64,000 nucleotides of DNA from Bryoerythrophyllum caledonicum. Its lineage: Eukaryota; Streptophyta; Bryopsida; Pottiales; Pottiaceae. A program made the position numbers and the translations under genes. The DNA is taken from contig OZ020523.1 of NCBI GenBank assembly GCA_963971425.1, positions 12,086,867-12,150,866 on the forward strand. Reading direction: 5' to 3'. Positions within the stretch are counted from its first letter, which is position 1. Each line of letters opens with the position of its first letter. Shown here one piece after another: positions 34,369 to 59,000 of the stretch. Under the pieces are notes generated by a model. That model saw nothing but the letters and a program-made list of their open reading frames with translations, did no database searches and was not told the DNA's origin.

Positions 34369-34795
34369 ATGTCTCAACTCCAAGTTGCGGTGACCCCCTC
34401 CAAGCGTCTACTTATTGAAGTACTAGAGGACAATGCATGCACTATAAAAGAAAACGAACATGCTTTGATTGTTGCAAGTGCCACCCAGAAAAAGGTTAAG
34501 GCAACAAGTTTGCCTTACACCAAATACTGGTTAGGTTTTCACACAATGAACATTCTGGCTAAGACAAATGGGAGTACAAAAGTGCCTTTGAATGCCTTAG
34601 AGAACTTGGTCAAAAATGGTCTAAGCAGGAAAGAAGCAGCTGAAACCATCGAATCTATGCCTTCTTTCCCATTTGTCCCCCAAGAGGAATGGCCCTCAAA
34701 ACGGGTGGATGGAAAGATTGGCAACCACTTCAACCTCACCCAACTTCCAAGTGAAGTTGAGGTAAATGAAGATGGGTATGCCTTAGATTACCAAG
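34369..34795 (+). pseudogene. LINE B ORF1, N-terminal part, interrupted by LINE A
   Basis: The frame starting MSQLQVAV (an earlier in-frame Met is at 34237) encodes the N-terminal region of the LINE ORF1 protein, presumed RNA-binding/chaperone. YTKYWLGF, KNGLSRKEAAE and GNHFNLTQLPSEVEV are matched in LINE A by YKFWMGF, TRGLKEEEAEE and KQHCNITQLPCEI. The frame is cut after LDYQ by the LINE A insertion and resumes in the same phase at 47805. Confidence 0.8.
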
Positions 34796-36179
34796 ACTCG
34801 CATCGATGGCAGGAGAAAGTGCTCCGTAAATTTTGGTGAGGAGGGCGTAGGGACTTAGTCTCAAAACTAGTGCTACAGGCCACAAGGAATGCTGGACCTT
34901 GTGGACAAGCCCCTGTTTGCACTAATTTTTTGAGGGCAGGAGTGAACTCAGAGAGCAGAGAGTGTGTTGGAATGGCTCAAAATTTTCAGATCTGAGGTTA
35001 GAACTACCGATCTAGATGTTTTTTAAGAGAGATTTGTGGTGAGTTGTTTTGAAAGCTTGGGAGACGTATGTTGGTCACTTAGATCTATCTTCTCCCGCAT
35101 CTAAGAGCGTTAGTTAGGCCAAAGATCTGAGAATAGTCCCGATCTGTGGAATCCTCCAGTTAAGCCCCTTCCGTCCCCCCAACCCGGACATCGCAACATC
35201 CAGCATTGATCGACGAACCAGCCTCGCCGAGCTTAAGGGCGACGTCAACACGCACATCCAGGTTACATCTCACGCAATTAGTTGTATTACATACTTTATT
35301 TTATTTGCTTCATGCTTCACATTTGCATCAGTTATTTCCATACACGTTTTAGCTTCAGATCTCACAAACACTAATCACAACACCTTAGATCTCACACACA
35401 CCAGTCACAATACTACACATCAGCACCATGTCACTAATCCTCTAACCCCTAAGCACATAAGTAGATCGTAGGTATTTGCACGCCACACGCGAAAGCGCTG
35501 GCAAAATCTCTACAGATCCACACGAGCACAAGGCACAGGCAAAAATGTCAACCCGCATCGCAGCGCGCAGATCCAATACGAGGACACACAACCCTGCGCA
35601 CATCCACTCGAGATCTACACCAACTTCACAACCTCACACATCAACATCACGACTAAGCAATCTGGAGATGAGGAGCAAAAGGAAGCTAGTAGATCAACAG
35701 CAACAAGGCAGCAGCAAACACACCAAGAATGCGCAAGACCAAGATCGAAGACAAAAACGAAGGTAAGTATCCTAGCACTACCTTCAACTCTTTTTGTGAC
35801 TCTCCCTCCTCTCCCTCCTCTCCCTATCTCCCTGACCATCAACAATCCCCCCACCCCTTCTTCACTGTCCCTCATTCCCCTCCCCCCCTCCCCTCTTTTA
35901 CCATCCCCCGCATCCAATTCACCATCCCCCTCCCTCCCCCTACCTCCCTCTCGCTCCCCCTTACTGTCCCCTCCTCTCCCCCAGCCTCTCTCTAGCCACC
36001 CACCCCCCTCCCCTCCCTATGACACCCCAACCCCCTCCCTCCCTGTACTCAAACCCCTCCCTGTAATCAAACCCCCCCATGCCGACTTCCCCTCCCCTCA
36101 GACGAAACCCCAACCCCCCCTGTCGACCTCCCTTTTCGGAGTACCAACTCTCCCTCTCTCAACTACTCCACAATAAACC

Positions 36180-36914: not shown

Positions 36915-38556
36915 ATGGCAGGAACCGCAAGGAAGAATTTATCTCTAGACTTAGAGATGGTGGACCAAACCGATGATAGCCCCAACTTCACCACAAAATC
37001 AAAGACACCAAGAGGCAAAGAAGGCGAAACCAGCAATAGCAAGAGAAGCAAAAAGTCCAACACCAATGAAGGTAAGTCCACTAAACCCACCTTTTCTACT
37101 TACAAATTTTGGATGGGGTTTTAGGCCATCGAAGCACTCGCAATAGAAGAAGGAGCTGAGGAACTCTTTAGTGGCGAAACGGTAATGGACATGATAACTC
37201 GAGGACTCAAAGAAGAGGAGGCCGAAGAGGCCCATGGAGCACGGGTGGCCTTCCCTTGAATTCCACAAATCTTGTATCCCATGGAAGTAAGGAAAGGTAT
37301 TGTCAAACAACACTGTAATATCACACAACTTCCTTGTGAAATCAAAACAAACGAATCCACAGGCCTATCTCTAGACTTTCATATTGCCATCCACTTCGAA
37401 ACTCCTACCACCCCTATTACGTATGACATGGCCAAGAACATGATAATGAAAAGGTTGGAGAAAATCGAACATTTTGCTTGGCACCGGAGTCTACAATCCA
37501 TTATACATACCATGTCTTAGTATCAAACAAGGAAAAATAAAAGGTGTATGGGCGGGATACTTTAAGGTACATCTCCTTAAACCCAAATATGATGGTCTTG
37601 CATTGCTTAAAGGACTTAGAATGTTCATCTTAAACATAGACGGTCAAAATGTAGTTGGCAAAGCTTGCAAGACCTTCAACAACCTTTCTAAAGGTTCTAA
37701 CATCTCCGTGAAAGTGAAAAGTGAGTGTCTAGTGGCAATTTCAGCTCAAGCGGTGTTTGAAGAAACACTTGGGCATAGCTTTGCACAAGGCCATGACTAC
37801 GAAATAACCAACGTGCAAAAGGTGAATGGTGAATCATGGGCATTCATCATAGCCTCAACACCAACACAAGTGAAGAACATGATCACCAACCGCATTGTGG
37901 TGCAAAATGAAGTCTTGCTCCCAAGACAAGTAGTTGACACCAAAGGACCAAATGGTGTCATCGAAACAAAGGCAAGGGAAGAAGCTCTAACCCTTACCCT
38001 CTGCTCTCTCCCTATCACTTTGAACACCTTGGACACTTCACAAGAAATATATAAGATTATGGGAGCCCTCAATGTGAGAAATTTGGTTTCATAGAGAGAG
38101 AGACACTCACCACAATGGAAGTTGCAATGTGCTTTGTGCTAACCCCATTGTGTAGAACCTTTGTGAAGAAAACTCACGTGATAAAAGGAAGTTATGTGGA
38201 CTTCTCAACACTCAAGGAGCTTGGAAGGGCTACACCCACCTACCCCCGACACCATCAAGGACTTTGGCTTTGACGACATCAACATCGCCCTCATCAACAC
38301 AATCACCACATTCAACGTTCAAGTTCTCCCATCATCACCCTCTCATTGCACCACGAAGGAAGTGGCAAAAATGATTGAAGACAACAACAAGAAGGTGATC
38401 CAAGCAAACAAGGACTACACCGACATGAAGCACGAAGAACTCAAGCACCACATGGAAGACATCCAAGCTACAATGTTCTCACTAGTGCAAAAGATGTCCG
38501 CCGTGACCGGTAAATCCAACTTACCATTACTCCAAGACAAACTGCCAAACATGTAG
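36915..38556 (+). pseudogene. LINE A ORF1 (broken)
   Basis: It starts MAGTARKN; the first ~70 codons are basic and Ser/Thr-rich. YKFWMGF is followed by a TAG at 37122, a second in-frame stop lies near 37258, and there are frameshifts near 37490 and 38095. The blocks align with LINE B ORF1: KQHCNITQLPCEI, a central part with GYFKVHLLKP and KGLRMFILNI, then FAQGHDYEITNVQK. The last part (38194-38556) ends in a helical, charged stretch (KEVAKMIEDNNKKV) that may be a coiled coil. The role is inferred from position: the ORF1 product of a LINE normally binds the element RNA. Confidence 0.78.
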
Positions 38557-38829
38557 TGACCAAAGACCACACAGTAAAACCTATTTACCATCTTTTTATT
38601 CCTTCTACAACACTATGGAGTAGAAAGTATAGTATAGCACAAATACCTCCATACCTTAGGTACATACAAATACTTACATTAAACAAATACATTCATTGTA
38701 TTAGAAGTTATATTAAATACAAAAAACAATATTGTATTAGACCTCACAAGTATTTATACCATATTAAAGAAAAAACAAAACTATACACACACCATATAAC
38801 ATACAAAAAAATTAAGTTAATATTATACT

Positions 38830-40640
38830 ACAAAACAACTACTTGTACAAATACTAGTACACACGCTGGTACATATACTGGTACATATACGGATACAAAT
38901 ACCAATATGTATACTGGTACATATACTAGTATGTATACTGATACATATACTAGTATGTATACTGATACATATACTAGTATGTATACTGATACATATACGT
39001 GTACAAATACTGGTATGTAGACTGGTACCCATACTAGAACAAATATTGGAACAAATACTTGTACACCTTCTGGTACGTATACCGGTACAGATGCGGATAC
39101 GTAACATGGTACGTAGATTAATACAAACACTGATAATACCAATAGTGTTGTAAATACCAATACGAATACTGATATGTGTACTAACACAAATACTGATACA
39201 AATACCATGACAAATACTGTGGCACATACTAATACGAATATACGTATAAATATTAATATAAAACCAAACAAAACCACATATACACACACAAAGCCAAACA
39301 CCCAACATCAACGAAACACATACATACACATATACAAAAAATAAATGAAAAGGATAAAATTAATCAAAGGAATAGACTAAATATACAAACAAAAAACGAA
39401 AGTATCAAAACCAAAATAAAAAATAAAAGGAATAAGAGAAGAGATGGAATTAGAATAAACAATAAAAGGAAAGAGAAAATAAGTATCATAACTACATATA
39501 ACAAAAAAGGAAACAATAATAATGAAAACAATAATGAAAATTTTGTATTAAAGATAAATAAGGGTAGAAGGGAATCTAAACCCAAAAACCATCAAAAGAT
39601 AAGGAATATAAAAATGGCTAAAAATAGGAAAATCAAAGAGAGTGAAAAGAGATATTATAAATTAAATAGGAAGAAGTTAGATATTTATAAAATTTCAAAG
39701 GTTTCAAATAGAGCAAGTAATATTAAAAACAAAAGAACAAAATCGGAGAGGATATGGAAGAAGAAAATAAAGGGTAAGGTAGAAAACCATTATCATAAGA
39801 ATACAAATAATAAGAACATTGCAACAAACTGCAGTACTAAAAATAGAATAAGCTTCCTAAGAAAATCAAAAATAAGGAATGGAAAATTATTCAAATTAAT
39901 AATGAGGAACACAAATTGTAGATTAAAAATGAGTAGAAAAGATACTAAAAACAAAACAATGCATACTAAAAATAGAAGTTGGAATACAAATTATAGGGAT
40001 AAAAGGAAAGTTAATAGTAAAAGTAAACTTGATATATATGAAGATGAGAAGAGTTTGCGATTAAAGAGTAGAAATATGTTGAGACTATGTAGAAGTATAC
40101 AAATTGAAGCAGGAAAGTTCGATTAGAAGTCTATATTTGGCCCTGAAGCCCCCAAAATAGACTTACTAAAAATAGAAATTCTAATGAAAGTAAGAATATA
40201 TACGAATCTGATTGAAATAAATATCAATATATTTTTCTGTATACTGGTACGTATCTGTATAAATATTTGTATACTTGTACATATACGTATACGTATACTG
40301 TTGCATATACTAATACAAATACTAATACTTATACTAATACAAATACTAATACTTATACTAATACAAATACCAATATGAATACTAGTACGTATACTAGTAC
40401 GAGTTATAACAAGAATACTAACAAGGATACTGATACAAACACCGAGACAAAAACCGAGGCATATACTAATACGAACATACGAATAAATATTAATATAAAA
40501 ACAAATAAAAATACATATACACACACAAATACAACAACACACCATCAACGTGACACATATAGAGAAAACGCCGGTCTCCGAAGAAGGCCGGCGTGAATCA
40601 TAACACATACATATACATACACACATACAAAAACAAATAC
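38830..40640 (+). repeat. ATAC-rich repeats expanding the ORF1-ORF2 spacer of LINE A
   Basis: Two blocks (about 38840-39345 and 40245-40640) consist of TACTGGTACATATA-like units and share the same exit sequence (AAATATTAATATAAAA, then ACATATACACACACA). They look like a duplication flanking an A-rich segment (39350-40130). That segment has a Lys/Asn-rich open frame at 39614-40126 that I regard as low-complexity. LINE B has only about 300 bp between ORF1 and ORF2, so roughly 1.8 kb was added here. Confidence 0.7.
40560..40602 (-). mobile_element. 43-bp micro-insertion consisting of the LINE 3' hairpin
   Basis: On the minus strand this reads ATTCACGCCGGCCTTCTTCG, then GAGACCGGCG and TTTTCTC, i.e. 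the 3' stem-loop of the LINE family plus a short pyrimidine tail. It is flanked by ACACATA on both sides (40553-40559 and 40603-40609). The sister repeat block at 39246-39345 lacks it, which shows it is an insertion. Confidence 0.75.
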
Positions 40641-40715
40641 ATACAATAAAAAAAACACCAAAGTCACATACAAAAACAAAAAAACTTTAAACAAAACAAA
40701 AAACCCATCTACTAC

Positions 40716-40766
40716 AAACTACTAATATTAATCGGAGGAGACATAGAGACTAACCCAGGACCTATG
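40716..40766 (+). promoter_or_regulatory. 2A-like ribosome-skipping sequence at the head of LINE A ORF2
   Basis: In frame with ORF2 the codons read KLLILIGGDIETNPGP followed by Met (40764). D-(V/I)-E-x-N-P-G-P is the full 2A consensus; during translation the Gly-Pro bond is skipped so that upstream and downstream products separate. The frame stays open upstream to a TAA at 40647 but has no ATG, so the true upstream part is lost or starts elsewhere. The same motif is at 49255-49281 in LINE B. Confidence 0.85.
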
Positions 40767-41714
40767 CCGAATGTATTAAAAAGACACCCCACTTCACACA
40801 AAAAGAATGCCAAAACATATTTCATACCAAATATCATAAAACTACAACCCGAATACGAACACATCGCCCAAAAATTTGCCCCCTTTTTCAATACCACACA
40901 TATATTACATCCACAACATAATAACGCATACCCACATATCGCCACATATATAAACCAACACAACGAATATCCTCCATCCCACATTCTATATGCCCTAGCC
41001 ATCACTATACACCCCAACATAGACCTCTGTAATCAATTCCTAAACACACAAAATCAAACCATAATCCAATGGATCAATACACTCCTTCACACTCTACATA
41101 ATCTACAAAACCCCCCCGAAACACACATTAGTACCCCACATCCTCACACAACATTTCTTGAATCCAACCTAAACATCATAACCTACAACAGATCGATAAA
41201 CAAAGAACTATATGACTTTATACACAACCAAAATATACAACCAAAATACACCCCCAACAAATGACATGGTAAAACAAAGATTCCCCTGCCTCCCTAACAC
41301 TATAAAAAACGAGGCACTAAAATGCCTAAATCCCCTCCCGGAATACACTCATCCACCCCCACCACCAAACTACATCCCATCACAAAACCATAACCCACAT
41401 ACGAACAACAACAACACAAGCATAATAACATGGAATGCCTCATCCCTAAACACTGCGCTCCCAAACCTACAAAACATAATTATACACACTAACACACCAC
41501 CGGCATTCATAGTCATACAAGAAACAAAAATATCGACCACAAAATCCACAAAATACATACAAAGACTATTTCCCACTACAAACTTATTTTCAATAATACA
41601 CATGCCCTAACACGATGCATACAACAAAAAAGACCATATACACCGGGCCGAGGGGCCCTCTTCACCCTCATACACAAAAATTACGCCTTTCCAGGCAATG
41701 TTAAAAAAATCCCC

Positions 41715-41875
41715 ATCAATTAGGCTCCAGTTAGATTCCATCAATTAGGCTCCAGTTAGATTCCATCAATTAGGCTCCAGTTAGATTCCATCAATTAGGC
41801 TCCAGTTAGATTCCATCAATTAGGCTCCAATTAGGCTTCAGTTAGAATCCATCAATTAGGCTCCAACTACGCTGC
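41715..41875 (+). repeat. 25-bp tandem repeat replacing part of the LINE A endonuclease
   Basis: Six units start at 41715, 41740, 41765, 41790, 41815 and 41851. The first four are identical and begin ATCAATTAGGCTCCAG; the fifth has an 11-bp internal duplication. In LINE B the corresponding place holds about 450 bp of endonuclease coding sequence (from IIKIPTP to FPIQLNIP), so this is a deletion filled by repeats. Confidence 0.88.
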
Positions 41876-44800
41876 ACTTGCCTATACAACTCCACATCCC
41901 AAACAACACATTTATAAACCGTACACCAACCAACACAAACAATGACCACATACGTATCCTCAACCCCATCCCACAAAACAACATAGAATCATTCAACACA
42001 AAATTCTTTGATGAAAACTCACTACGCATTGACTCCCAAATAAACGAATTGGAATCTAATAACCATCTTTCCCAAACACAATGGCAAGAAGTCTGTCACA
42101 CCCTAGATACTCTCATCAATAACATATCCAATGCAATTGAACAAACTTGCAAAGCCCAACCCATACCACAAATGACAAATCGAACATCACAACAAGGTGG
42201 ATATTTACCCCGGAAACTATCTAAAACATGGAAACAACATTTAACCATTTATCACACCATACGGAAAACCATAAAAATCATAAATAACAACCCCCAATGG
42301 CGAAACCACCCTATTCTCAACGATCTCCAAAACCTTCAACACACACAAATCCCTAATCCACCCCCCATACACCTACCTCACGACACATGGATAAATGACA
42401 TAGCATTAATTTCAAAAAATGCAAACATACAAGCCCGAAAAATCACCACCAAACATACCCAAGAAAACATTCGAAAAAGCCATCTCCAAATACAGACAAC
42501 TATATGAAACTAGCCCCAAGAAAATAAATAGAAGAATATTCAAAAATATGGAATCCCCACCATTAGACTACATCATCGACTAATATAACAATATACTAAC
42601 TAGCCCAGAAGACATTGCAAACGAAATATTTAATCAACAAACAAAAAACAACACACCTACGGTAAACACATGCAACTATCAACCGGACCACCACACTACA
42701 TGCACATGCAGAGTACGACAATATCCATGGCATGACTTAGATGGATTCACATTAGAAACAAGAGGAGACCCGGAAACCCCACTACTCACATACTTTAAAC
42801 AAGCTACATATGACACATGTCTACGTAACCTAGGAAATAACAAAGCTCCCGGACCGGACCGCATACCGAACTCTATCCTAAAAAATATGCCCCCAAGGTT
42901 CCACAAACTACTAAACCTCTTCTTCTCCCACTGCTAGAAACAAAGACAAATCCCCGCTTCATGGAAAACAAGTGCAACGATCCTACTATACAAAAAAAGA
43001 GATCCATCCATGCTACCGAACCATAGACCCATCGCACTAGACAATACCATCTATAAACTATTTACGAGCACATTCACATCAATACTATCATCATATGGCG
43101 AAAAACATAAAATATTGCATGATAGTCAAGAAGGATTCCGCGCAGAAAGAAGCACCGCTAGACAAATCCAAACAATAATAGCCGCATTAGAAGATGCACG
43201 ACTTACAAACCAAGACATATTTATATTGTATGTCGACTTTAAAAATGCCTTCGGCTCTATTGACCACGCTAGACTTTTAGCTATAATGACGGACCTTGGA
43301 TACCCCAAAGACGCCACCGCAGTAGTAGGAAATATATACTCCGAATCCTTAACTTCCTACATAGGAGAACACTTTGGTAAAACTAAACCCATAGCCATCC
43401 AAAGGGGAACAATACAAGGAGATACCCTAAGCCCATATTTATTTATTATATTCCTAGAACCACTACTTAGATGGCTAGATAGAGGGAACAATGGATACAC
43501 ATTTGGGACATCACAAACCACCATCAACTCCACAGCATACGCGAACGACCTTGCGGCCATAACCAACAAAATCAACGCCATAAAAATACAAATTAACAAA
43601 ATAGACAGGTACTGCAAATGGAGAGGTATGGATGTAGGGGTCCCAAAATGTGCCATCACAGGATGCCCAAATAAATCAAAAACAAACCCCACTGCATTCA
43701 AAGCCCTAATACAAACCTCTAACATTAATTACCAAAACCAACAAATACCCGTTCTACACCAAAACAAACCATATACATATCTAGGAATAAGTCTCGTCCC
43801 CTCCCTAAAATGGAAAACCCAAATTCATGCCACCACCACAAAATTAATCAAACAGTGCAAAGAACTAATAGCTTGTCCGGCCACTATGAAACAAAAAATA
43901 AAAATGATCGACACAGTTTTAAAATCGGGCGGGGCATATAGCTTCTACGCGGTACCATAGTCAATGCCTGCCATCAAAAAACTGGACCAAAAAATAACTA
44001 CCACACAAAAAACCGTATGCGGCATGCCAAAATGTATGTCTAACATAATTATCCAACTACCACACAACCTCTTTGGACTAGAAGCCTTCTCACTAAAAAA
44101 CGCATACCTTAGATGCATAGGAGAACAACTCCAGAATGCTCTAAATGACATGGGTAGACTTGGGAAAATATACAAAGGCCTAACACATCACATCCTCGCA
44201 CAATATGGGGGGGGCAGAAAACATACCTAGAATAAAAAAGACAAATTGTACAAGATCACCAATAACACGTACCTTCTTCCTACTAAAACACGTAGCAAAA
44301 GTCCACCTAAAAAGTACTCTCCCTGATTTTCTTACAGAACCAACAACACTAGAAAAAGCCTGGACTCTTGAAACACAAAACCATAATACAATCAACACAC
44401 AATTATCTCAAAAGTTATTACAAAAACTCCTAACAAAAAATATTTACGAACTAAAACAAATCTCCCTACTCAACGGAACACACATCATAAACAATGAAGA
44501 GTTTAAAACCTACCACTTCACCCCATCAAAACTTATTAAAAGTGCCCTAAAAATTGCACGACAACTCTTTTGTCACCCAATATACCCCCCCCACCCAATA
44601 CACATACCAATACACATATATACTCTCATACAATTAGAGACCCATTCATCACTATAAACAATGACATCACCCCAAGAAATATCACCACACAATCGATCCA
44701 CCCTCCCCACTCCCACCCACACCACCCCCACCCCCCAAACCACATCCTCAAAAACCCCACCACCTATTCCATTAACAACATCATACACCACGAATACAAG

Positions 44801-47516
44801 GAAAAAATAGATTAAAACCAGATAGAAATCAATTACACTAGATATCTATGCCAATGGACTCACAGTAACCACACTTACAACAAATGGCTCCTCCAAAGAA
44901 ACCTCTTTCCAAGACACAACCAAAACACCATTTCACATAACACAAATAAATTGACACAATATTATCAAAGAACTCAACACAAATTCTACACCGAAATTAT
45001 CCAAGTTCACCACCCACAAAACCAACTCCAAGACACAAGGTCCGTCACCCCACGCACAATAATCCCCCTACTAAACATCTACACAACGGAATGCAACCCC
45101 GAAAAAGACACTCTTACCTCATCTAACACAATAAAAATTGACAAAGACCAAGCACACTTATACGAAGAAGATGGAAGACATCTTTTTACCATCCCAATCA
45201 CTAGGCTCACATGGTTGTGGAACCAATACAATACTAAACTACAAACCCCTAAAAACATTGAACCAACAACCCAACCGTTCGAAACCGAAGTCATTTGGCT
45301 ATACCAAAGATACAAATATAGATAACCAAAAAATAACCCCCTTAAACTTACACAATATACACTACCCATACCTATACTTAATTCACTAATCTCCACATTC
45401 AACATCCAACACTCATATTTCTCCTCCCCCGTCACATGCCCCACCAAACTCAACAAATTTTACTCCCCCTTTGAAAGAGATAAATTATTTGGATCACTAG
45501 GCAAAGCCTTTGACCACAAATGGATAGGTAATGGTATGGCCCACCCACACGATGAAGAAGAAACACAACAAGCTCTACATTGGGCCCGCCTCGTGGCCAA
45601 ACATGACCCAAATCACACCTCCACCTTAATCATAACCCAGACAAAAACTGGTACCAAAATCATAATCCACACTCGGGCCCCTTTCCCGATACACACATCA
45701 TCACAATATTCGAAGCCGATTCAATAACATGTGAAGAACCCACCATCCCACTAGATCTCAAAAAACCCAGAATTGAATCATCCACTCTACAAATAATATG
45801 CATCCACCACCAAAATCATACTCTAGGCACACAAGAACAACTAGAAGAACTCTCCTCCGTAGCAAAGACTCTAAACGTACACCGGATACTCACAAAATTG
45901 GCCCCACCAACGCCAATGCAAACACCCGTCAACAGAAGCAAAAAATGGTCAAAACTACACTACAATAACAATACACTAAACTACACCTTAACACCCCCAC
46001 CCCTCCCGGAGTATCAAACTAACACCCCACCTAAATTTAACCCCAAATATAGCTACTATACTGATGGCTCCTTTAAACCGCCAGAACAAATTAGCCCGGG
46101 ATCTTGGCGCAGAGAAAAAGCCGGTTATGGAATATACAACGCTACGAAAGAAATCAAACTAGCCAAAAGACTACATGGACTGTAAAATATCCTCAGAGCA
46201 GAACTAATGGCCATCCACAAATCACTACAAATCGTCTCAACAAAATACAACAATGAACCGGTGCACATATTTACAGATTGCATTAATGCACTATATTTAT
46301 TAAACATCCAAATAACACATCCTACCCTCCATAATAGTCACCCCGACCGAATCATACTAGAATCAATGGTCCAAATGATACTAAAAAGAGAACAAATCAC
46401 AACCCTTCACAAAGGCCGAGCCCATGCTAATATTGATGGCAATCAACAAGCGGATAAACTTGCAAAAGAAGGAAGAGAAAAATCACATAAAAATGCCAAA
46501 GACCCACATGAACACGCCCATTCCACCCCTTACTACTTCCAAAAAGAAGATTGGCCCTCCAAAGAAGACACCCCCGATAAAGGCCCGGTCAGATTCCTGA
46601 GCAAATACCTCAAAAAACAAGACCTACATAACAATCTTGACACAATCACAGACAACTTTCCTAACATAGAAAAGTGGACTAACAACAATGACATAGACAA
46701 TGAACTCTCTACAAATTTTTGGAAAATCCCCATCATCACCGATTTACAAATAACATGCCTTATCAAATTCCGTACCGGTCAATACATGGGAAATGCCCGT
46801 AAACAACTCTTCTTTGGAATAGAAAGATTTCCATCCATAACATGCCCCATATGCCCCTCAACAGACCCCGACACATGGCTACATGTTCTACTCAAATGCC
46901 AAAACCACCACATACACTCCCTAATTGTTAAAAGACATAACAAAGCGGTATGGCAAGTCCAAAAACTAATCACCTCCTACAATAAATCAAGATGTTTTAT
47001 ACTAATGAACGCCGACACTTTTAATAACAATCCACAAGAAAATACGGTCCCCCCGTGGCTACTCCCATGCTCATGTACGACCCAAAGATGTCATTGCAAT
47101 GCTAGGCTCAAACCGGACATCCTTTGTGTCAAAGGTTTACAATTCAATGACCCACCACCCGATAACGTCAACCAAGACTACACCATTCAATTCATTGAAT
47201 TCATATATTGCAACGATAGATTTTCCCCGGAAACAATCCAAAACAAAATAGACAAATACCAACCCCTTATTGACGACATCATCGCCCTCGGATGGAATGT
47301 CGACCCCCTGATGGTAATGACATCCGGCGCTCATGCCACCACCTTTATCCCATCTATGAGAACTCTAGAGGACACCTTCAAGATATCCATTGAAACAATT
47401 AAAACATCCTTTAAAAACATTAACACCATAGCTATCCAACATGCCATGTCCATTCTTCTACATAAACACAAAATCGAAAACAACCAAGCCCTCCCCGATA
47501 CACAGGACCCCCCCTA

Positions 47517-47804
47517 AATTCTCCCCCCGCCTTGATTTTCTTGACTAGTTGGTTTTAAGGTTTTTTGACTACTTGCCTGGTTTGTGGTTAGTTCGTTGGC
47601 TAGTTGCTTGGTTTGTGATTGGTTGGTTGGTTGGTTGGTTGACTTGTGGTTCTTTGGTTTCTTGTTACATAGTGTCTACCCTCGAGAGAGGGAAGTAGTT
47701 CCAGCTCACTAATTCCTTGTCATGTGGGCATGGTCTTAGTAGTGGAACGAACAGACACTTTATTCACGCCGGCTTCCTTCGGAGACCGGCGTTCTTCTTT
47801 CTTT
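47517..47804 (+). other. 3' UTR and terminal hairpin of LINE A
   Basis: A T/G-rich stretch with GGTTGGTT runs is followed by a conserved block starting GTGTCTACCCTCGAGAGAGG (about 47672) and by AACGAACAGACACTTTATTC. The end is a stem-loop: CGCCGG (47767-47772) pairs with CCGGCG (47786-47791), with an inner stem CTTC/GGAG. It is followed by TTCTTCTTTCTTTTT. LINE C has the same block and the SINE at 5596-5910 has a diverged version. Confidence 0.88.
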
Positions 47805-48977
47805 TTAGATTACCAAGTTTCAATCCACTTTGAACTTGGTGATCAAATATGGGCAAAAGACGTCGTCTTAGACATGATAAAATCACGTCTTAAAGACATG
47901 GGAATCCCTACTAGGACTCGCATTGGTGAACCAATAGCAGTCTTCTGCTATCATCAATCAAAAAATTGGAGTGGAATGATCAAACTACACCTAAAGAACC
48001 CGGATGTGGATGCCAAGGGTTTGTTGCAAGGAACAAGGCCCTTCATTCTTACTTTGAATGAAGGAATCCCACACAAAGGCAAAATATGCAAGGCATATGA
48101 TGCCTTGGCCTTCTCACATCTCTTGTCGGTAAAAATTTCTGGTCCTAACCTAGCCAACAAAGAAGCATATGACTTGTATGCGGAAATTGTGAGAGATAGC
48201 TTTGCCAGGGGATATGATTTTGAAGTAACGGGGGTAGAGAAAAAGGGATTTTCTGAATTTGCATGGGTCCAAACACCCTCTCCGGAGCAAGTTGCCAAAA
48301 TCAAAGATTACAAAGTCTCATTCAATAATGAAATCTTTGTGCCAATCTTTGCTACCCAGAAGATGGATGAGGATGAGATTGCAAAAAAGAATTGTCTAAT
48401 TCTAATTGCAAAAAACCTCAACAAAACAAAAAACGAAAAAGAACTAGCGGATGGAATCAAGTCCATATTTGGGGAAGAGAATGTGGTCGATACATTCTTC
48501 AAACTCGAGCATGGGAGACATGTTGGCACTTGCAATATCAAATGTCTAAACGCAGCGGTATATAAGAAATTTGTCAAGCAAAGTAAAAAACTACATGGTA
48601 AATACATAATGTTTTCACCCCACCCTAAGAGTTTGGACGGTAGCAACAAACCAAGTGCCGAAGAATTGACAAGACTAGGATTCACGGATGTAAACTAGGC
48701 TGTAGCTAACGCGGATATTGCTATGGAAAACTGTCTAAACAAGGGCAATGGTTTTACTCTACAACAACTTCGAAGAGAAATGAAAAACATGAAAGGAGAA
48801 ATAGTGGAAGAAGCGAGACAATATGCAGATATGGTGCAAGCAAACACGGTCAAATCCCTCAGAGGGGAAATGTCAACTCTCCGATCTCAGCTAATTACTA
48901 CCATCATGGCGGCAGAAACACAAGCATCAGAACGAGAGCAACGTGCCATTGAAAGCAAGATGGACACGTCAAACTAA
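47805..48977 (+). pseudogene. LINE B ORF1, C-terminal part
   Basis: Continuation of the interrupted ORF1. Blocks shared with LINE A ORF1 are MIKLHLKNP (LINE A: YFKVHLLKP), LQGTRPFILTLN and FARGYDFEVTGVEK. After about 48390, CLILIAKNLNKTKNEKELAD and HVGTCNIKCLN look like the RNP2 and RNP1 strands of an RRM-like RNA-binding fold. A TAG at 48696 interrupts the frame after LGFTDVN; reading on gives AVANADIAMENC and a Glu/Lys-rich C-terminus (QQLRREMKNMKGE) likely to form a coiled coil, ending at 48977. LINE A has LGFDDINIALINT-like sequence at the same point, so the TAG is a nonsense mutation. Confidence 0.78.
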
Positions 48978-49008
48978 TAGCGTCAAACAACGCTACAACC
49001 AACCACAC

Positions 49009-49146
49009 TATAGTATATATATATACTAAAATACATATCAAAAACCAAAAAAAGTTTTAAAAAATATGTATAAGAAAAGAAACAAATACTATAGTATACT
49101 TATATACTATAATATATAATAATAATAACAACAACAACAACAACAA

Positions 49147-49190
<44 letters not shown>
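49009..49190 (+). repeat. TA-rich and (CAA)n microsatellites in the ORF1-ORF2 spacer of LINE B
   Basis: TATATATATACTAAAATACA and TATACTATAATATATAATAA are followed by an AAC/CAA run to 49190. The CAA run is in frame with the 2A motif and would read as poly-Gln back to a TAA at 49126. Confidence 0.8.
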
Positions 49191-52100
49191 CTCCACATCC
49201 CTCCCATTAGTAACCAGAATCATTACTCATTGCAAACTATTAATTACACGTTGCGGGGACATAGAAACTAACCCCGGCCCTATGCCAAATGTCTTCCACA
49301 ACCATCCAAATACACACAAAAAATTATCAAAAATATATTTCATTCCGAACACTATAAAACTCCACCCCGAATATCAACACCTAGCATCTTCCTTTGCACC
49401 ACTTCTAAAAAATAATCACATACTTCACCAAATATATTCCACCCTCTACCCCAACATTTCCCGCTACGTCCATCAAAAAAACAACCACCCATCCACACAT
49501 ATCTTATTCGCCATAATTACCACCCTCCACCCTTCAATAGACAAATGTAACAATCTCACCAACCAAAATTCTACCAACACAAACCCAACACATTGGACAA
49601 ATATATCACTAAACACCCTATCCTCTCTACAGAATCCCCCCGAAAGACAAATAGATACGCTCCACCCATACACGAAATTCCTAGAGGAAAATCAACACCT
49701 TCTGGAACACAAAACCTCTCTACACAATGACCTATATAACTTTATTCATAGCCAAACTCCACCCCCTTCCCCCGATGAACTACAACAATAATTTCCCTAC
49801 TTCTCGCACAACCTTATCCTAAAAGCTCTAGATGCTTTGAACGAATTCATGCCTACACGCACCCCACCCCGACACCTGCCTACATTTCCCCTCCACTTGG
49901 TAACCACGACAATATAGACAATAGAAACGCATATATAACTACATGGAACGCCTCAACATTAAACACTGCTTTACCATGCATCCACAATCTAACCACCCAC
50001 ACCAATACACCACCCGCCATAATTGCCATACAAGAAACTAAACTAACCTCTACTAAATCCACAAAATACATCCAAAAAACATTCCCTGATTATAAACTTA
50101 TATTTAACAACACCCATTCTCTCACACGATGCATCCAACAACGAAGACCATATACACCGGCAAGAGGAGGTCTACTCATGCTCATACACCAATCATATGC
50201 CTTCCCCAGAAATATTATCAAAATCCCTACCCCCGCTAATATATCACCATATCTTCAAATTATTGAAATTACTAACCGACCCCTCCAACCATGGCTCATT
50301 CTTCATCTATACATGCCCTCGCACATAGAAGACTCCAGACTTATTCCAGAGATCCAAAATTCCATCACTTCACAAATAAAGACACACAACAACCATACAA
50401 TAATACTTTGCGGAGACTTTAAGCGAGATATCGCCCTCATCGGACGACAAAACGGAACAGTTTTCCCCCCCACATGACATAGACTATCAATGGCGTAATT
50501 TCACGACTAACCTTGAATTATATCTAATCCCAACCAATCCACAATACTCCTCTCAAGGTGGACTTAATTACACACACTAGCCTAATTGATGGATTTTACA
50601 TAAAAACACCTCACCATACCCGATACACATCTATCACCAATACCACAACCAACTTAAATTCGGACCACTTCCCAATCCAACTTAATATACCTCACAACAC
50701 CTTTATAAGTAGACCTCCCACAACCATCAACTCAAATGTTATTAAAATACTAAACCCCATCCCAAAAGAAAACCTTCATAACTTTAATACAATATTCTTT
50801 GAAAAAAACTCACTACAAATAGACTCCCTTACAGATATTCTTTCTAACCACCAACACCTCACACACATACAATGGCAAGAAGCTTGCACGACTCTTGACA
50901 AACTTATTAATGAAATTTCTGCTACATTAGAAAAGACATGTAAAGCACCTCCGATTCCACAACTCACACCTAGAACCTCGCAACAAGGAGGATATCTCCC
51001 AAGAAAACTAGCCAAATTCTGGATACAACATCTTCTCACATACCACACCATTGGTAAAACAATTTATATTGCTAAAACTAACCACAATTGGCGAACCCAC
51101 CCCATACTCTCCGAACTACAAAACCTCCGCCACCCGCAAATCCCACAAGTACCACCACCCATCACGAAGACTGGTTAAAAAACATTGCAACCATTGCAAA
51201 AGATGCCAACAAAGAAGCTTGGAAAATTACTACTAAATATGCAAGAGAATGTGTTAAAAAAGCCATTTCTAAGTATCGTAAATTGTACGAAACCAGCCCA
51301 AAAAAGATTAATAGAAAAGTCTTTAAAAACAACACAAACCTACCACTAGACTGCATTTTAGACCAAAACAATAACATATTAACCAGCCCAGATGACATCG
51401 CAAACGAATACATCTTCAGCAATCCATAAACAATAGACCAACCACCACCCCATGTCATTTTCAACCACAACATACACCAACATGCACATGCGGAGTTAGA
51501 CAATACCCGTGGCATGATTTAGATGGATTTACTACTGATAAAAGAGGCAAACCAAAAACACCTCTCCACACATATTATAACAGAGACACATACAACATGT
51601 GCCTAAAAAATCTGGGAACCAACAAAGCCCATGGCCCGGACCATATACCCAACTCAATTCTAAAAAACATGCCCCCAAGATTCCACGATCTTCTATCAGT
51701 ATTTTTCCTTCATTGTTACAAACAAAAATCCATTTCCGCATCTTGGAAAACAAGTCTAACAATCTTATTATACAAAAAAGGCAACCCATCTTCACTATCT
51801 AACCACCGACCTATTGCCTTAGCTAACACCATTTACAAATTATATACTAGTACACTTACATCAATATTATCGGCCTACGGAGAAATACACCAAATATTAC
51901 ACAAAAGCCAAGAAGGGTTTAGAGCCGAGAGAAGTACCACATGGCAACTTCAAACCCTCATTGCCGCTCTTGAGGATGCAAAAATCACGAATAAAGACAT
52001 TTACATACTCTATACTGACTTCAAAAACGCATTTGGTTCCATTGACCATCATGGATTGCTAGCCGTTATGAGTGATCTTGGGTACCCGGAAGACGCAGTC

Positions 52101-55100
52101 ACACTTGTTGGCAATATATACTCCCAATCTACCACTACATACATCGGCGAATTCTTTGGTAAAATATGCCCTATCCCCATCCAACGTGGTACCATCCAAG
52201 GCGACACATTGAGCCCATACCTCTTTATTATTTTTCTAGAACCTCTACTGAGATGGCTTCAAAGAGGCAATAATGGCTACACATTTGGTACCTCCAAAGT
52301 CACCGTAAATTCGGCCGCATATGCCGACGATCTAGCGGCCATCTCCGGACGTCTTAAATCACTCCAAATTCAATTAGACAAAATAGACAAATTTTGTCTA
52401 TGGATCGGGATGGAACTCGGGGTCCAAAAATGTGCGGTAACCGGATGCCCAAACAAATCCAAAATAAATCCGACCGCCTTCAAAGCCCTTATCCAAACTA
52501 CCAATATCCACTATCGTAACCAACCAATTCCGGTACTCAACCAAAACCAACCTTACATATACCTTGGAATAAACCTAATTCCATTGTTAAAATGGAAAAT
52601 TCAAACCCACGTTACTACTACAAAACTTATTAAACAATGCAATGAACTTACACTCTGCCCGGCCACATTGCAACAAAAAATAAAAATGATTGATACCGTC
52701 ATACGACCAGGTATCTCATATAGTTTCTATGCGGTCCCTTATTCCATGCCCGCCATAAACAAACTTGATAAAAAGAATCATAGCTATACAAAAGAAAGTA
52801 TACGGACTCTCTAAATGCACGCCCAATGTCATAACACAACTCCCCCACGAACTATTTGGATTAGAAGCTTTTTCCCTCAAAAATGCCTATCTAGGATGCA
52901 TTGGAGAACAACTCCAAAATGCACTTAACGACAAGGGACGACTAGGCCAAATTTATAGTGGACTCCTTCGACACATCCTTGCCATTTATGGAGGAGCACA
53001 ATACCTCCAAAGACTGAAAAAAACTGATTGTCTTCGGTCTCCTATTACCCGCACACTCTTTCTACTCAAAACAGAAGGTCAAACATTCCTAAAAAGCACA
53101 CAAGAAGATTTCCTACTAGGCCCCGCACCGCTTGAACAAAATTGGGCAAACGAAATACATAACCTCCCTAGACTTGACCGATAGTTATCCGCCAAACTCC
53201 TACAAAAACTTTTTTCCGCAAACATTACCGATCTAAAACAAATTACACTACCAAATGGAACACAACTTATGGACGACAAGAGCTACATAACATTTACAGT
53301 ACCCCTCACAAATTAATAAAAAGTGCATTGAATATTGTTAAACAATTATTTTGTCAACCTCCATGTCTCCCTGAATGCCCGAACCCTTGCACTACTCACG
53401 CCCCACCTTACACACTCAAAGACCCGTACATCATTGGCCACAATGACATCCATCCCAACATCAATCTCCCACTAATCCCTCCAAACCCGCCACACTCACG
53501 ACCATATGCCCCTCCACCACATATACTAAAAAATCCTTCCATGTACCCAATAAACAACATAACCGTGCACAAACATAGAAAGTATATTGACTCCAACAAC
53601 ATAAGCAAACAACACACGTCATATCTATGCCATTGGCCCCACAATAACACCACCTACACCAAATGGCTCCCGCAAGAAATCTTTTTCCTCGGCACAACCC
53701 AAACGCTTCCTTACATAACACAAAAATCCTCACACAATACTACCTTAAAACTCAAAACAGTTATTACCTGAATATCATACAAATACACCATCCCCAAGCA
53801 CAACCTCGAGATAGAAGATTCGTCACGCCACCTCTTATTATCCTCCTCCTTTACATTTATACAACCAAATGCAACCCCGAAACTGACATCCTGGCACAAA
53901 CAAATTCAATCAAAATACAACAAGATAATGCCCACATATACGAAGATAATGGTAGGCACCTAATAACCATACCACTCGCTAGACTACAATGGCTGTGGAA
54001 CCAATATCACAACGCACTACAGACCTCCATCAATATTGAACCAATACCCCAAATAATTGAAACCGAAATTGTTTGGCTATACCAAAGATATAAATACCGT
54101 ATACCTAAAAATGACCCCCTTAAAAATGCACACTACACATTACCCAATCCAATCCTAGACTACCTTATTACATCTCTAAATATCACACATTCATACTTCT
54201 CATCTCCTGTTACATGCTCCACAAAAATTTCAAAATTCTACTCTCCATTCGAACGTGATAAGATTTTTGGTTCTCTTGGTAAAGCTTTTGATTATAGATG
54301 GAGCGGAATAGGCCTTGCACACCCTCACAACAAAGAAGAAACACAGCAAGCAACACAGTGGGCACGCCTAGCGGCAAACAATGATCCCAACCACAACATC
54401 ACCATTATTATTACTCCCGACACTCATCGGTACCAAAACTCTAACCCACACTTAGGCCCATTCCCGGACTCTCACATCATAATACTATTTGAGGCGGATT
54501 CTATGACTTACAAAGAACCCACTATACCACCGCAAATACAAACACCCCGCCTTGAACCAGCAACCCTACGTATCCTATGTATACATCACCAAACTCGAGA
54601 GATAGGTACTCCGGAAAACCTCACTCATCTCACTTTGATAGCAAAAAACCTAAACATTAACAAGGTATACACCGCAATTGCCCCTCCCACACCTATTTCA
54701 ACCCGTGTAAACCGTAACAAAAAATGGTCTAAAATCCCCCACACAATCATCCCCGCACTACCAATTACCCAATTGAGCCTCCCCCTCCTCTATTACCAAA
54801 TTAATACCGACCCTAAATTTGACCCCAACTTTAGCTATTACACTGGCGGCTCTTTTTAAGAAGCAACCGAAGTAAGCCCGGGACATTGGCACCGAGAAAA
54901 AGCCGGTTATGGGATATACAACTCAACCAAACAAATAAAATTAGGCAAAAGACTACATGGACTCCGAAACATTCTAAAAGCCAAAATGATGGCTATACAC
55001 AAAACCCTTAAGATAATCACCACTCGATACCCAAACAAACCGGCTCACATTTTTACAGATTGCGTAAATGTATTACATCTCCTAAATACACACATTAAAC

Positions 55101-55750
55101 ACCCCACTTTACACAACAGTCACCCGGACAAAACTATCCTTACATCTCTGGTTGCAATGCTCCAAAATCGCACATAAATTACTACACTCCACAAAGTCCG
55201 AGCTCATGCTAACATCGCCGGCAATGAACAAGCCGATAAACTAGCAAAGGAAGGAAGAGAAAATACCCACAAGGATGCCGAACACCCATACGAACACGCC
55301 CATGCCACCCCATATTACTACCATAGATATGAATGGCCCTCTAGGGGTGAAACTCCCGACAAAGGCCCCATACGATTCTTGGACAAATATCTCAAAAAAC
55401 ATGATCTTGTAAACAACCTAGAAAAACTCACAGAAAATTTCCCCAATATTGATAAATGGACCGGCAACCCAAACATTCACAACGTACTATCCAACAGTTT
55501 TTGGAAAAACCCAATTTATACGGATCCACAAATCACATGCCTAATCAAATTCCGCACCGGACAATACATGGGTAATGCCCGTAAACAACTCTTCTTTGGA
55601 ATTGAAAGATTTTCTACAATAACATGTCAAATTTGCAACACTACAGACCCGGACACATGGCTACATGTCCTACTCAAGTGCCAAAACCCCCATATACACT
55701 CACTAATTGTCAAAAGACATAACAAAGCCGTATGGGCTATCCATAAATTT
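49129..55750 (+). pseudogene. LINE B ORF2 (broken, 3'-truncated)
   Basis: Same order as LINE A, with the endonuclease region retained. The N-terminal region (KIYFIPNTIKLHPEYQH) is followed by APE endonuclease about 49870-50680 (TWNASTLNTAL, AIQETKL, CGDFKRDIALIG, NSDHFPIQL). The RT (51597-52814) has GFRAERSTTWQL, YTDFKNAFGSIDHHG, IQRGTIQGDTLSPYLF and an intact YADDL. The PCIF1-like region has HSYFSSPVTC and ERDKIFGSLGKAFDYRW near 54190-54330. RNase H is degraded: TDGSF is TGGSF and AELMAIHK is AKMMAIHK. The zinc-finger-like CQICNTTDPDTWLHVLLKC is the last domain. Frameshifts or stops occur near 49790, 50477, 51178, 51429, 52800, 53184 and 54859. Confidence 0.83.
49234..49284 (+). promoter_or_regulatory. 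2A-like ribosome-skipping sequence at the head of LINE B ORF2
   Basis: In frame with ORF2 the codons read KLLITRCGDIETNPGP followed by Met at 49282. The nine-residue core is identical to LINE A although several codons differ at third positions (GGA/GGG, GAG/GAA, CCA/CCC, GGA/GGC). This pattern shows selection on the peptide before the copies decayed. Confidence 0.87.
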
Positions 55751-55886
55751 AAAAAAAAAAAAAAAAACGCCGGTCTCCGAAGGAGCCGGCGTGAATAAAG
55801 TGTCTGTTCGTTCCACTACTAAGACCATGCTCACTGGACAAGGAATTAGTAAACTGGAACTACTTCCCCCTCTCGAGGGTAGACAC
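55751..55886 (-). other. 3' terminal block and hairpin of LINE C
   Basis: Read on the minus strand: GTGTCTACCCTCGAGAGGGG (from 55886), AACGAACAGACACTTTATTC, then the hairpin and T17. The hairpin is CGCCGG-CTCC-TTC-GGAG-A-CCGGCG (55791-55768), a 10-bp stem with a single bulged A. Compared with LINE A the inner stem keeps pairing (CTCC/GGAG versus CTTC/GGAG with a wobble). Confidence 0.9.
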
Positions 55887-56004
55887 TATGTAACAAGTGA
55901 CCAAATACCAACCAAGCACACAAGCAACCAACGTAACAACTAACTAAGCAAGTCGCCAAAACCACAAAACCAACAAGTCAGGATAAGTCTGGGCGGAGAA
56001 GCAT

Positions 56005-59000
56005 TTAAGGGGGGTCTTGCATATCGGGGAGGGCTTGGTTGTTTTCAATTTTACGTTTATGTAGCAAAATGGACATGGCATATTGAATAGCGATGGTGTT
56101 AATGTTTTTAAAGGTGGTTTTGGTTGTTTCAATGGGTATTTTGAAGGTATCTTCAAGAGTTTTCATAGATGGAATAAAGGTGGTGGCACAAGCGCCGGAT
56201 GTGATAACAATAATGGGGTCTACCTTCCATCCAATGGCAATGATGTCGTCAATGAGGGGTTGGTATTTGTCAATTTTGTTTTGGATTGTTTTAGGAGAAA
56301 CTCTATCGTTGCAATATGTGAATTCAATGAATTGAATGGTGTACTTTAGGTTAATGTGGTCGGGTGGCGGATCATTGTATGGTTAACCTCTAACACAAAG
56401 GATGTCCGGTTTGAGCCTAGCATTACAATGACATCTTTGGGTCACACATGAGCATGGGAGTAGCCAAGGGGGGACCGTATTTTCTTGTGGATTGTTATTA
56501 AAAGTGTCGGCGTTCATTAGTATAAAACATCTCGATTTATTGTAGGAGGTGATTAGTTTTCGGATTTCCCATACCGCTTTATTATGCCTTTTAACAATTA
56601 GAGAGTGTATGTGGTGGTTTTGGCATTTGAGTAGAACATGTAGCCATGTGTCGGGGTCCGTTGAGGGGCATATGGGGCATGTTATGGATGGGATTCTTTC
56701 TATTCCAAAGAAGAGTTGTTTGCGAGCATTTCCCGTATACTGACCAGTATGGAATTTGATGAGGCATGTTATTTGTGAGTCTGAGATGATGGGGATTTTC
56801 CAAAAGTTTGTAGAGAGTTCATTGTCTGTGTCGTTATTGTTAATCCATTTTCTATGTTAGGAATATTTTCTGAGATTGTGTCAAGGTTGTTGTAGAGGTC
56901 TTGTTTTTTGAGATATTTGCCCAAGAATCTAATTGGGCCTTTGTCAGGGGTATCTCCTTTGGAAGGCGAATCTTCTTTTTGAAAGTAGTATGGGGTGGCA
57001 TGGACATGTTCGTGTGGGTCTTTGGCATTTTTGTGTGTTTTTTCTCGGCCTTCTTTTGCAAGTTTGTCTGCTTGTTTGTTGCCATCAATGTTGGCATGGG
57101 CTCTCACTTTGTGAAGGGTTGTGATTTGTGTACGGTTTTGTAGCATTTGGACCATTGATGTTAATATGGTTTAGTCAGGGTGGCTATTGTGAAGGGTAGG
57201 GTGTGTTATTTGAGTGTTTAGTAGGTAAAGTGCATTTATACAATCGGTGAATATATGTGCGGGTTCATTTTTGTATTTTGTTGTGATGATTTGTAGTGTT
57301 TTGTGAATGGCCATAAGTTCTGTTCTGAGGATATTTTGTAGTCCATGGAGTCTTTTGGCTAGTTTAATTTCTTTGGTAGAATTATATATGCCATATCCAG
57401 CTTTTTCTCTACGCCAAGAGCCCGGGCTAAATTGTTCCGGTGGTTTAAAGGAGCCGTCGGTGTAATAACTGTGTGCGGGGCTAAATTTTGGTATGGTATG
57501 AGTTGGGTAGTCAGGGAGAGGGGGAGGTGTGACGGAGTAGTTTAATGTGTTGTTCACATAGTTTAATTTTGACCAGTTTTTGCTTCTTTTTACGGGGGTT
57601 TGTATGGGTGTTGGTTGGGCCGGTTTTGTGTATGGTCGTTGTATGTCTAGATTGTCTGTTATGGAGGTAAGTTCCGCAAGTTGTTCTAGGGAGCCAAGGG
57701 TTTGATTTTTGATGGTGGACGCATAGTATTTGTAATGTAGATGGCTCAGTTCGGGGTTCTTTTAGCTCGGGTGGAATATTAGGTTCTTCGTATGGTATTG
57801 TGTTTGCTTCGAATACTGCAATGATGTGGGAATCTGGGTATGGGTTTAAATGTTGGTTGTTGTTTTGGTACCAATTGTTGTTCGGTGTGACGATGATTGT
57901 TTTTGTGTTATTTGGATCGTGTTTGGCGGCAAGTCTAGCCCAATGTATGGCTTGTTCCATGTCTTTCTTGTTGTGGGGGTGAGCTATGCCATTTCCGATC
58001 CATTTGTGGTCAAAGGCCTTGCCTAGGGATCCAAATATTTTGTCTCTTTCGTACGGTGAGTAGAATTTATTTAGTTTGGTAGGACATGTGATCGGGGAGG
58101 AAAAGTATGAGTGCTCGATGTTAAAGGATGAGATTAGTGAGTCTAGAATGGGGGTGGATATTGTGTATTGCGCATTTTTGAGGGGGTCAGTTTTTGGTAT
58201 TCGATATTTATACCTTTGGTAAAGCCATATTAGTTCGGTTTCAAAGGGTTGAGTTGTTGGTTCAATGTTTGTAGGGGTTTGGAATTTTGTATGATATTGT
58301 TTCCATAACCATTGGAGCCGGGTAATGTGTATGGTGTGTAAATGTCGGCCATTTTCTTCGTATAGATGTGCTTGATTGTTATTTATTTGAATTGTGTTTG
58401 AGGATGTAAGGATATCATTTTCGGGGTTGCATTCTGTTGTGTAGATGTTTAAGAGTGGGAGTATTTTGGGTGGTGTTACGGATCTTGAGTCTGAGAATTG
58501 TTCTTGGGGGTGGTGGGCTAGGATGATATCCGAGTATGTTTTGTTTTGAATTTTTTGGTAGTATTGTTTTAATTTTTCCGTGTTATGTGTGGAGGTATTA
58601 GTGTCGTGGTGTGGAGGTATTAGTGTCGTGTCGTGGAAAAAGGTCTTTTTGGGGGAGCCATTTATTATATGTATTATCATTCTCTTGCCATTGGCATAGG
58701 TATTTTGTGTAGGTATTTTGTATGTTATTTATGTCTGTGTGTTGGATATGTTTATGATTTATGATATTACTAATGGGATATGTGGTAGGGTTTTTGGGGA
58801 TGTATGTTGGGGGGCGGGGGTGGTATGTATGTGGGGGGTTAGGGGGATTGGTTGGTGTGGGAATATTTCTTGGGATGATGTTATTGTTGAGGGTGATGAA
58901 TGGATCTTTAAGTATTTTAGAGTATGGGTGTATGTTGCAAGGAGTATGACATATAGTGGGGCATGTTAGATGGCAAAATAGTTGTTTAGCAACATTTAGG

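Follow-up and report, generated by a model that had tools for sequence, protein, structure and literature searches.

StopGo or 2A peptides, at which the ribosome skips one peptide bond, are known mainly from viruses, from some trypanosome and animal retroelements and from sea urchin genes. The L1Tc element of Trypanosoma cruzi, a retrotransposon without long terminal repeats (non-LTR), was reportedly found by Heras in 2006 to carry a 2A in frame with its proteins, and it is said to have a single open reading frame (ORF) with the 2A at the N terminus. Sequences resembling 2A, with an L-rich lead-in, were reportedly also described by Odon in 2013 in APE-type (apurinic-type endonuclease) non-LTR retrotransposons of multicellular organisms, whose hosts are said to be animals; we know of no -1 overlap or stop-free neutral leader in those elements. 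Here we analyzed a window of 64,000 nucleotides (nt) from the moss Bryoerythrophyllum caledonicum (assembly GCA_963971425.1, contig OZ020523.1, positions 12,086,867 to 12,150,866, forward strand), to which all unlabeled coordinates refer. Two long interspersed nuclear elements (LINEs) in this window, termed A and B, encode a 2A-like peptide at the head of ORF2.

The viral StopGo core is given as D(V/I)ExNPGP, and the upstream motifs include an L-rich class, one L-rich motif of which was active in vitro; the same study found no evidence that plant viruses use StopGo naturally (PMC12846837). The moss peptides share with the viral L-rich motifs 2 and 6 of that study the D at p12, the G at p11 and an LLLLSG-like hexapeptide. 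They differ from the viral motifs described there in that the host is a plant and the carrier a retrotransposon, and from L1Tc in that the host is a green plant.

Sequence and constraint of the 2A-like peptide

In element A, the lead-in begins with K at 40716, GDIETNPGP occupies 40737-40763 and an ATG follows at 40764 (peptide KLLILIGGDIETNPGP-M, 40716-40766). The corresponding positions in element B are 49234, 49255-49281 and 49282 (KLLITRCGDIETNPGP-M, 49234-49284). Both peptides are in frame with ORF2, which bears out the coordinates and frame of a reading made from the letters alone (here the sequence-only reading) that had proposed a canonical 2A-like peptide in both LINEs.

40716 to 40763, plus strand: 2A-like peptide of A, KLLILIGG-DIETNPGP, predicted to break between G and the final P
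49234 to 49281, plus strand: 2A-like peptide of B, KLLITRCG-DIETNPGP

When the window was scanned with a degenerate 2A DNA pattern at up to three mismatches, these two motifs had one mismatch each (Ser in the pattern, Thr in the sequence), and one further match with three mismatches lay on the minus strand (31708-31733); 100 shuffles as a control gave a mean of 0 matches. The window has no third 2A motif, and element C is without its 5' part. The frame before the motif is open only from 40650 in A and 49129 in B, and neither window copy has an in-frame ATG upstream of the motif. The nine core codons of A and B differ at four places, all of them third positions and all synonymous. Differences in the 29 aligned codons 5' of the core number 17, 8 and 10 at codon positions 1, 2 and 3, and 20 of these codons are non-synonymous. 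Selection on the core had been claimed from such third-position changes; the A/B pair alone makes a weak case for it (4 of 4), and the genome-wide copies make a strong one.

These copies were sought in the host assembly (437 megabases, 894 contigs) with the core pattern GAYRTNGARWSNAAYCCNGGNCC, which encodes D-[IMV]-E-x-NPGP with x restricted to WSN codons (T, S and few others). The genome-wide collection of copies proposed by the sequence-only reading was thereby carried out in part, with 1,526 exact matches (786 forward and 740 reverse); the reversed pattern, used as a control on the same genome, had 0. A looser pattern, in which residue 2 could be any NTN codon, x was free and ATG CC had to follow, had 1,619 matches. 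Among the 100 of these listed, residue 2 was I in 98 and V in 2, and x was T in 89, K in 5, A in 3, Q in 2 and I in 1 (hand counts). Natural variation thus stays within the core as published, D(V/I)ExNPGP, since residue 2 is I or V and only x otherwise varies, and the motif has the 2A/StopGo core octapeptide (D/G/C/N)(V/I)ExNPGP. A pattern free at PGP had 1,599 matches, and PGP was kept in 47 of the 55 shown.

Codon constraint was examined in 35 motif records, from which the 3-kb versions of 21 loci were left out (10-kb stretches replaced 20 of them, and L050 replaced L029). One site occurs twice among the records, as L014 and as the second L040 motif, and L025 and L046 share identical sequence near the motif. 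From these records 21 copies were chosen by hand, 12 similar to A (A-type) and 9 similar to B (B-type). Pairwise differences in the core of the 21 copies fell at codon positions 1, 2 and 3 in the numbers 0, 20 and 795 (795 of 815 at the third position), and the 20 second-position differences fit a single copy, L052, with Lys at x, compared with the 20 others. In the seven codons before the core the numbers were 671, 98 and 676, and the depression at position 2 indicates that the hydrophobic class of the residues is kept. Between -21 and -180 nt, the differences are spread about evenly over the three positions, with no codon bias. On these substitution counts, the 2A residues are under selection, and codon constraint is judged to begin at the L-rich lead-in.

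Lead-ins in the 35 records were KLLLLLGG (11), KLLIILCG (5), KLLILIGG (4), TLLLLLGG (3) and others found once each; KILLLLSG and similar forms were also seen. A 2A calls for a suitable upstream context of about six or more residues; the SG and CG types fit the L-rich class ending in (A/S/C)G, and the GG types are one residue off. The lead-in named by the sequence-only reading is not conserved at every residue in the two window copies (KLLILIGG versus KLLITRCG).

Six aligned copies, the L033 group, have a second 2A-ORF2 head about 500 nt upstream, followed by an ORF2 stub only. The upstream 2A is altered in five of the six (GDMETNPRP in L033, L038 and L039, GDMETNPRS in L047 and GDKETNPRP in the second L040 motif), and the 2A adjacent to ORF2 is intact in all six. 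In L050, there are two intact 2As in one frame, with motifs at 5501 and 6011 of that copy (plus strand), 510 nt apart. The two 2As also share a frame in L033 and L047, and one-base indels part them in L038 and the L040 copy. The 2A that would free the whole ORF2 seems to be the copy kept.

Downstream of the 2A in L033 are about 217 amino acids (aa) without a known domain, then a PF03372 endonuclease (219-392, E 4.1e-6) and a reverse transcriptase (RVT_1, 838-1099, E 3.5e-26); L039 is alike. The ORF2 of both copies thus has the apurinic-type endonuclease and reverse transcriptase of an APE-type LINE. By sequence, the best solved-structure match of the reverse transcriptase is that of R2, which says little about its clade.

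The leader and its frame relative to ORF1

An ORF1 was found upstream of the 2A in 16 of 20 ten-kb stretches. It encodes 528 aa in L051, and A-type and B-type ORF1 are 34% identical. The leader between ORF1 and the 2A is about 300-3,000 nt long, is without amino-acid constraint and includes repeats of frame-preserving units (3 and 12 bp). In the 21 copies, the stretch from -300 to -21 nt has 23 stops among 1,953 codons of the 2A frame, versus 117 and 99 in the other frames; the counts for the 35 records were 34 versus 207 and 174. This avoidance of stops suggests that the leader is translated in the 2A frame even with its amino acids free to vary. By these statistics, the 2A appears to lie inside a frame that is translated, and coding sequence for the endonuclease and reverse transcriptase follows it. 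In an alignment of the sequence past the ORF1 stop (9 of 12 A-type and 8 of 8 B-type copies), A-type leaders beyond 21 nt from the stop had no codon bias at 55-60% pairwise difference.

The ends of ORF1 were compared in 20 copies (12 A-type, 8 B-type), with L049 (premature stop), L036 (stop lost), L037 (partial match), L025 (like L046) and L041 (deletion) left out. All 20 have their own ORF1 stop, which rules out an in-frame fusion of ORF1 to the 2A as a general rule. In the 180 nt after this stop, the -1 frame of the A-type copies had 0 stops in 720 codons, where the other two frames had 47 and 49 in 708, and that of the B-type copies had 8 in 480, versus 41 and 27 of 472; it was free of stops over this distance in 16 of the 20. 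In L031, L044, L045 and L051, in which the whole leader is undamaged, the 2A frame runs back into ORF1 at -1. The downstream frame thus lies at -1 and overlaps the upstream stop, as in a gag-pol-like arrangement.

The phase was also determined by pairing the 106 best ORF1 matches of 3,418 candidates with 43 hand-picked 2A matches; repeating this with all 106 ORF1 and all 150 2A matches (the best 150 of 3,882) returned the identical 43 pairs. The 2A was at -1 to ORF1 in 31 pairs, at 0 in 8 and at +1 in 4. Among the least-damaged pairs, with an open frame of at least 2,100 aa, 15 of 17 were at -1, a result with a chance of about 4e-6 (at one in three) or 0.001 (at one in two) if pairs are independent. 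The linkers of the 17 pairs span 291-1,313 nt and those of these 15 span 329-1,313 nt; in 8 of the 15, with linkers of 368-842 nt, the open frame minus one third of the linker comes to 2,397-2,400. Leaders that differ greatly in length thus keep one frame, and this is the strongest argument, from sequence, that ribosomes would arrive from ORF1. The sequence-only reading had suggested that the upstream product might include ORF1. This does not hold directly, as ORF1 usually stops, and it holds in the sense that ORF1 can be reached through the -1 frame. With an own stop and a -1 phase, a frameshift or a coupled restart would be needed to join ORF1 and leader.

In 19 of the 20 copies, the last codons of ORF1 include a conserved YCAAA[CA] (CCAAAC, TCAAAC, CCAAAA or TCAAAA, read by eye), located zero to two codons before the stop; L032 has TCTAAC at this position. 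At such a site an Asn or Lys tRNA could slip from AAC or AAA to AAA one base back and so enter the -1 frame. The canonical slippery heptamer X_XXY_YYZ is absent at the ORF1 ends of the 20 copies, and a slip at YCAAA[CA] stays a candidate because the preceding codon disallows the canonical double slip. In 5 of the 8 B-type copies, an identical stem-loop begins at the first base past the stop, and 7 of the 8 have a fold 3' of the stop at a z of -2.5 or lower (60 shuffles each); no conserved RNA structure 3' of the stop was found in the 12 A-type copies. In SART1, ORF1 and ORF2 are coupled by a UAAUG stop-start (PMC2881922). Translation of the moss ORF2 would similarly depend on that of ORF1, but just 2 of 12 A-type copies (L038 and L043) and 0 of 8 B-type copies have a -1-frame AUG at the stop of ORF1 or overlapping it. 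Slippage at YCAAA[CA] and coupled restart are about equally probable as the way into the -1 frame.

Two observations concern single copies or small groups. In L041 (positions 3794-5500 of that copy, plus strand), the end and stop of ORF1 are gone, and ORF1 reads in frame through a poly-Q stretch to the 2A and ORF2; this copy looks like a deletion derivative. At seven sites, ORF1 lies in a 1,604-aa open frame (C1:14457246, C1:56257373, C8:5826479, C11:6201007, C4:12970684, C7:3433605 and C14:656030). One of these copies, L051, was read in part; its frame is open for more than 1,000 codons before the Met of ORF1, an extension that may be 5' repeats or a further coding part.

Proposed expression of ORF2 and its alternatives

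From these patterns we infer a translation route for an APE-type LINE family with two genes. ORF1 (about 528 aa) ends at its own stop, and a fraction of the ribosomes reaching this point would enter the -1 frame by a slip at YCAAA[CA] or by a coupled restart. These ribosomes would then translate the long, low-complexity leader, whose sequence may be free as long as it stays open. The L-rich 2A, (K/T)LLLLLGG-DIETNPG^P and variants, would make the ribosome skip one peptide bond, and ORF2 (N-terminal domain, endonuclease, reverse transcriptase and probably RNase H) would be freed as a separate protein starting with Pro-Met. Entry at -1 from ORF1 with a disposable leader appears well supported by the frame statistics, and the predicted 2A skipping is very likely and probably frees the ORF2 enzyme; the route as a whole, from -1 entry to release of ORF2, we consider quite probable on the sequence comparisons. 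It is slightly favored that the layout is gag-pol-like, with -1 recoding joining ORF1 and ORF2 through a throw-away leader that StopGo removes. If StopGo removes the leader, the element would tolerate rapid growth of the 3-bp and 12-bp repeats between its genes.

Several observations weigh against this route. At the 2A itself, PGP was lost in 8 of the 55 matches shown (LGL, RGP, LGP twice, PRP twice, PGS and PSP), which is unsurprising because the family has many damaged copies, and many copies have GG before D where the L-rich viral 2As described in PMC12846837 have (A/S/C)G. At the ORF1 end, the candidate slip site N-YCA-AA[CA] is not the canonical heptamer in the 20 copies, and a fold at a z of -2.5 or lower is found in only 1 of the 12 A-type copies. 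The B-type evidence is weaker, the -1 frame being stop-free over 180 nt in 4 of 8. Two of the 17 best pairs have phase 0, and 12 of all 43 have a phase other than -1; L052 combines phase 0 with an in-frame leader ATG soon after the ORF1 stop, and the ORF1 stop is lost in L036. Most copies carry damage and share ancestry (among the 12 A-type copies, for example, L045 with L022, and L038 with L043 and window A), so that the counts are not independent. Finally, the last 100 nt before the 2A contain 0 ATG in the 35 records (10.2 expected), and the ATG directly after the 2A would also fit initiation there by some ribosomes.

The best surviving alternative is that the leader is entered independently of ORF1 by a start of its own, at a variable AUG or non-AUG codon, perhaps with ribosomes entering internally at the AC-rich repeats, and that the 2A still skips. 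An in-frame leader ATG is present in 17 of the 35 records, and the ATG of L052 would suit such a start. The first ATG lies 55-605 aa upstream, at no fixed place, and the leaders of L031, L044 and L051 are open into ORF1 without any ATG. A -1 phase held across differing linker lengths is not needed for independent entry, and we regard this explanation as unlikely.

Less probable again, and in our view rather doubtful, is that the ATG after the motif serves as the start of ORF2, reached by internal initiation or rescanning, the 2A stretch being mostly untranslated leader. This ATG directly follows all 32 motif matches (30 sites) of the first 30 loci, and its use would agree with the empty last 100 nt and with the scarcity of in-frame ATGs upstream, which A and B lack altogether. 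Further upstream, the number of ATGs comes close to that of shuffles (21 versus 27.0 over 200 nt, 41 versus 46.1 over 300 nt), so that a scanning ribosome would meet other ATGs first. Untranslated leader also fits poorly with core differences at third positions except at x, with variation confined to residues that a 2A tolerates and with the avoidance of stops in exactly the 2A frame over hundreds of nt.

The least probable explanation, a 2A that is a fossil or that serves as a signal or targeting sequence but does not skip, has precedents in PMC4981915, where an N-terminal 2A-like sequence has a signal-sequence role in sea urchin NLR proteins and 2A-like sequences yield cleaved and uncleaved forms in varying proportions, but it is very improbable given that NPGP is kept with variation mainly at tolerated residues, and that four upstream-motif classes, one of them L-rich, were active in vitro in PMC12846837.

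Elements of the window and comparison with other retrotransposons

The two window elements are damaged members of the family described above. Their ORF2 sequences are about 70% alike over much of their length, and for this reason A and B are not considered recent duplicates. Apart from the 2A-like peptides, the following parts were located.

37056 to 38556, plus strand: ORF1 of A, broken into frames, with the end ...KLPNM-stop (TAG at 38554-38556); found by tblastn with the L051 ORF1 and by tblastx of A versus B
38545 to 38550, plus strand: CCAAAC at the end of A ORF1, the conserved YCAAA[CA] of the ORF1-end alignment; candidate -1 transition place
38557 to 40715, plus strand: leader of A, with a 12-bp minisatellite; past the ORF1 stop the -1 frame is open, with lesions further on in this copy
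40764 to 47517, plus strand: ORF2 of A, broken by frameshifts and a 25-bp repeat insertion, with reverse transcriptase, a weak RNase H match and an endonuclease region by homology
47799 to 48977, plus strand: ORF1 of B, 5'-truncated at the 3' end of A, with one internal TAG and the end ...KMDTSN-TAA
48969 to 48974, plus strand: TCAAAC directly 5' of the B ORF1 stop, putative -1 transition site
48978 to 48995, plus strand: stem-loop TAGCGT-CAAACA-ACGCTA directly 3' of the B ORF1 stop (z = -5.6, 60 shuffles)
48996 to 49233, plus strand: leader of B, with an (AAC/CAA)n microsatellite and without ATG in the 2A frame
49282 to 55742, plus strand: ORF2 of B, with several frameshifts, 3'-truncated at the junction with element C
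55753 to 62490, minus strand: element C, a related LINE with the ORF2 part only, its 2A gone

The RNase H match of A is below the cut-off (E 3.8e-5). A 25-bp tandem repeat, CCATCAATTAGGCTCCAGTTAGATT, is inserted at about 41713-41873, in the N-terminal, endonuclease-side part of A ORF2. Just 5' of the A 2A is a near-palindromic hairpin (about 40569-40601) that resembles, by eye, the reverse complement of a hairpin at about 47763-47796, at the 3' end of A. Upstream of A, 34369-34905 (plus strand) holds a B-type ORF1 fragment with 55% identity to the L051 ORF1, a probable remnant of a fourth element. One scan of viral contigs with the reverse transcriptase of element C found no relative. Elsewhere in the window, glycoside hydrolase family 3 (beta-xylosidase-like) genes lie on both strands of 15725-29777. 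The host genome has 18 matches to the SBP domain, which is not known outside green plants, and 14 control genomes have none; a YABBY search had no match in the host, nor in its controls.

Compared with L1Tc as it is said to be organized, the moss LINE has a separate ORF1, a 2A frame at -1 to ORF1 and a long unconstrained leader between the two. The 2A itself is known in kind; the arrangement of ORF1, leader and 2A appears to be new, as does the host. No report of a 2A in a plant LINE was found in the titles and abstract beginnings of the open literature, which does not extend to Odon 2013 and Rao 2025, and the plant host is likely a novelty for a LINE 2A.

The more than 1,500 core matches differ in leader, lead-in and codons, and they form a natural library for what a 2A needs in plant ribosomes. 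The layout offers a possible answer to how the ORF2 of a two-gene LINE is made without a conserved start codon before the 2A, and it suggests that a frame can stay open over hundreds of codons without its amino acids mattering. The gag-pol-like layout, if true, would mean that a land plant uses StopGo naturally.

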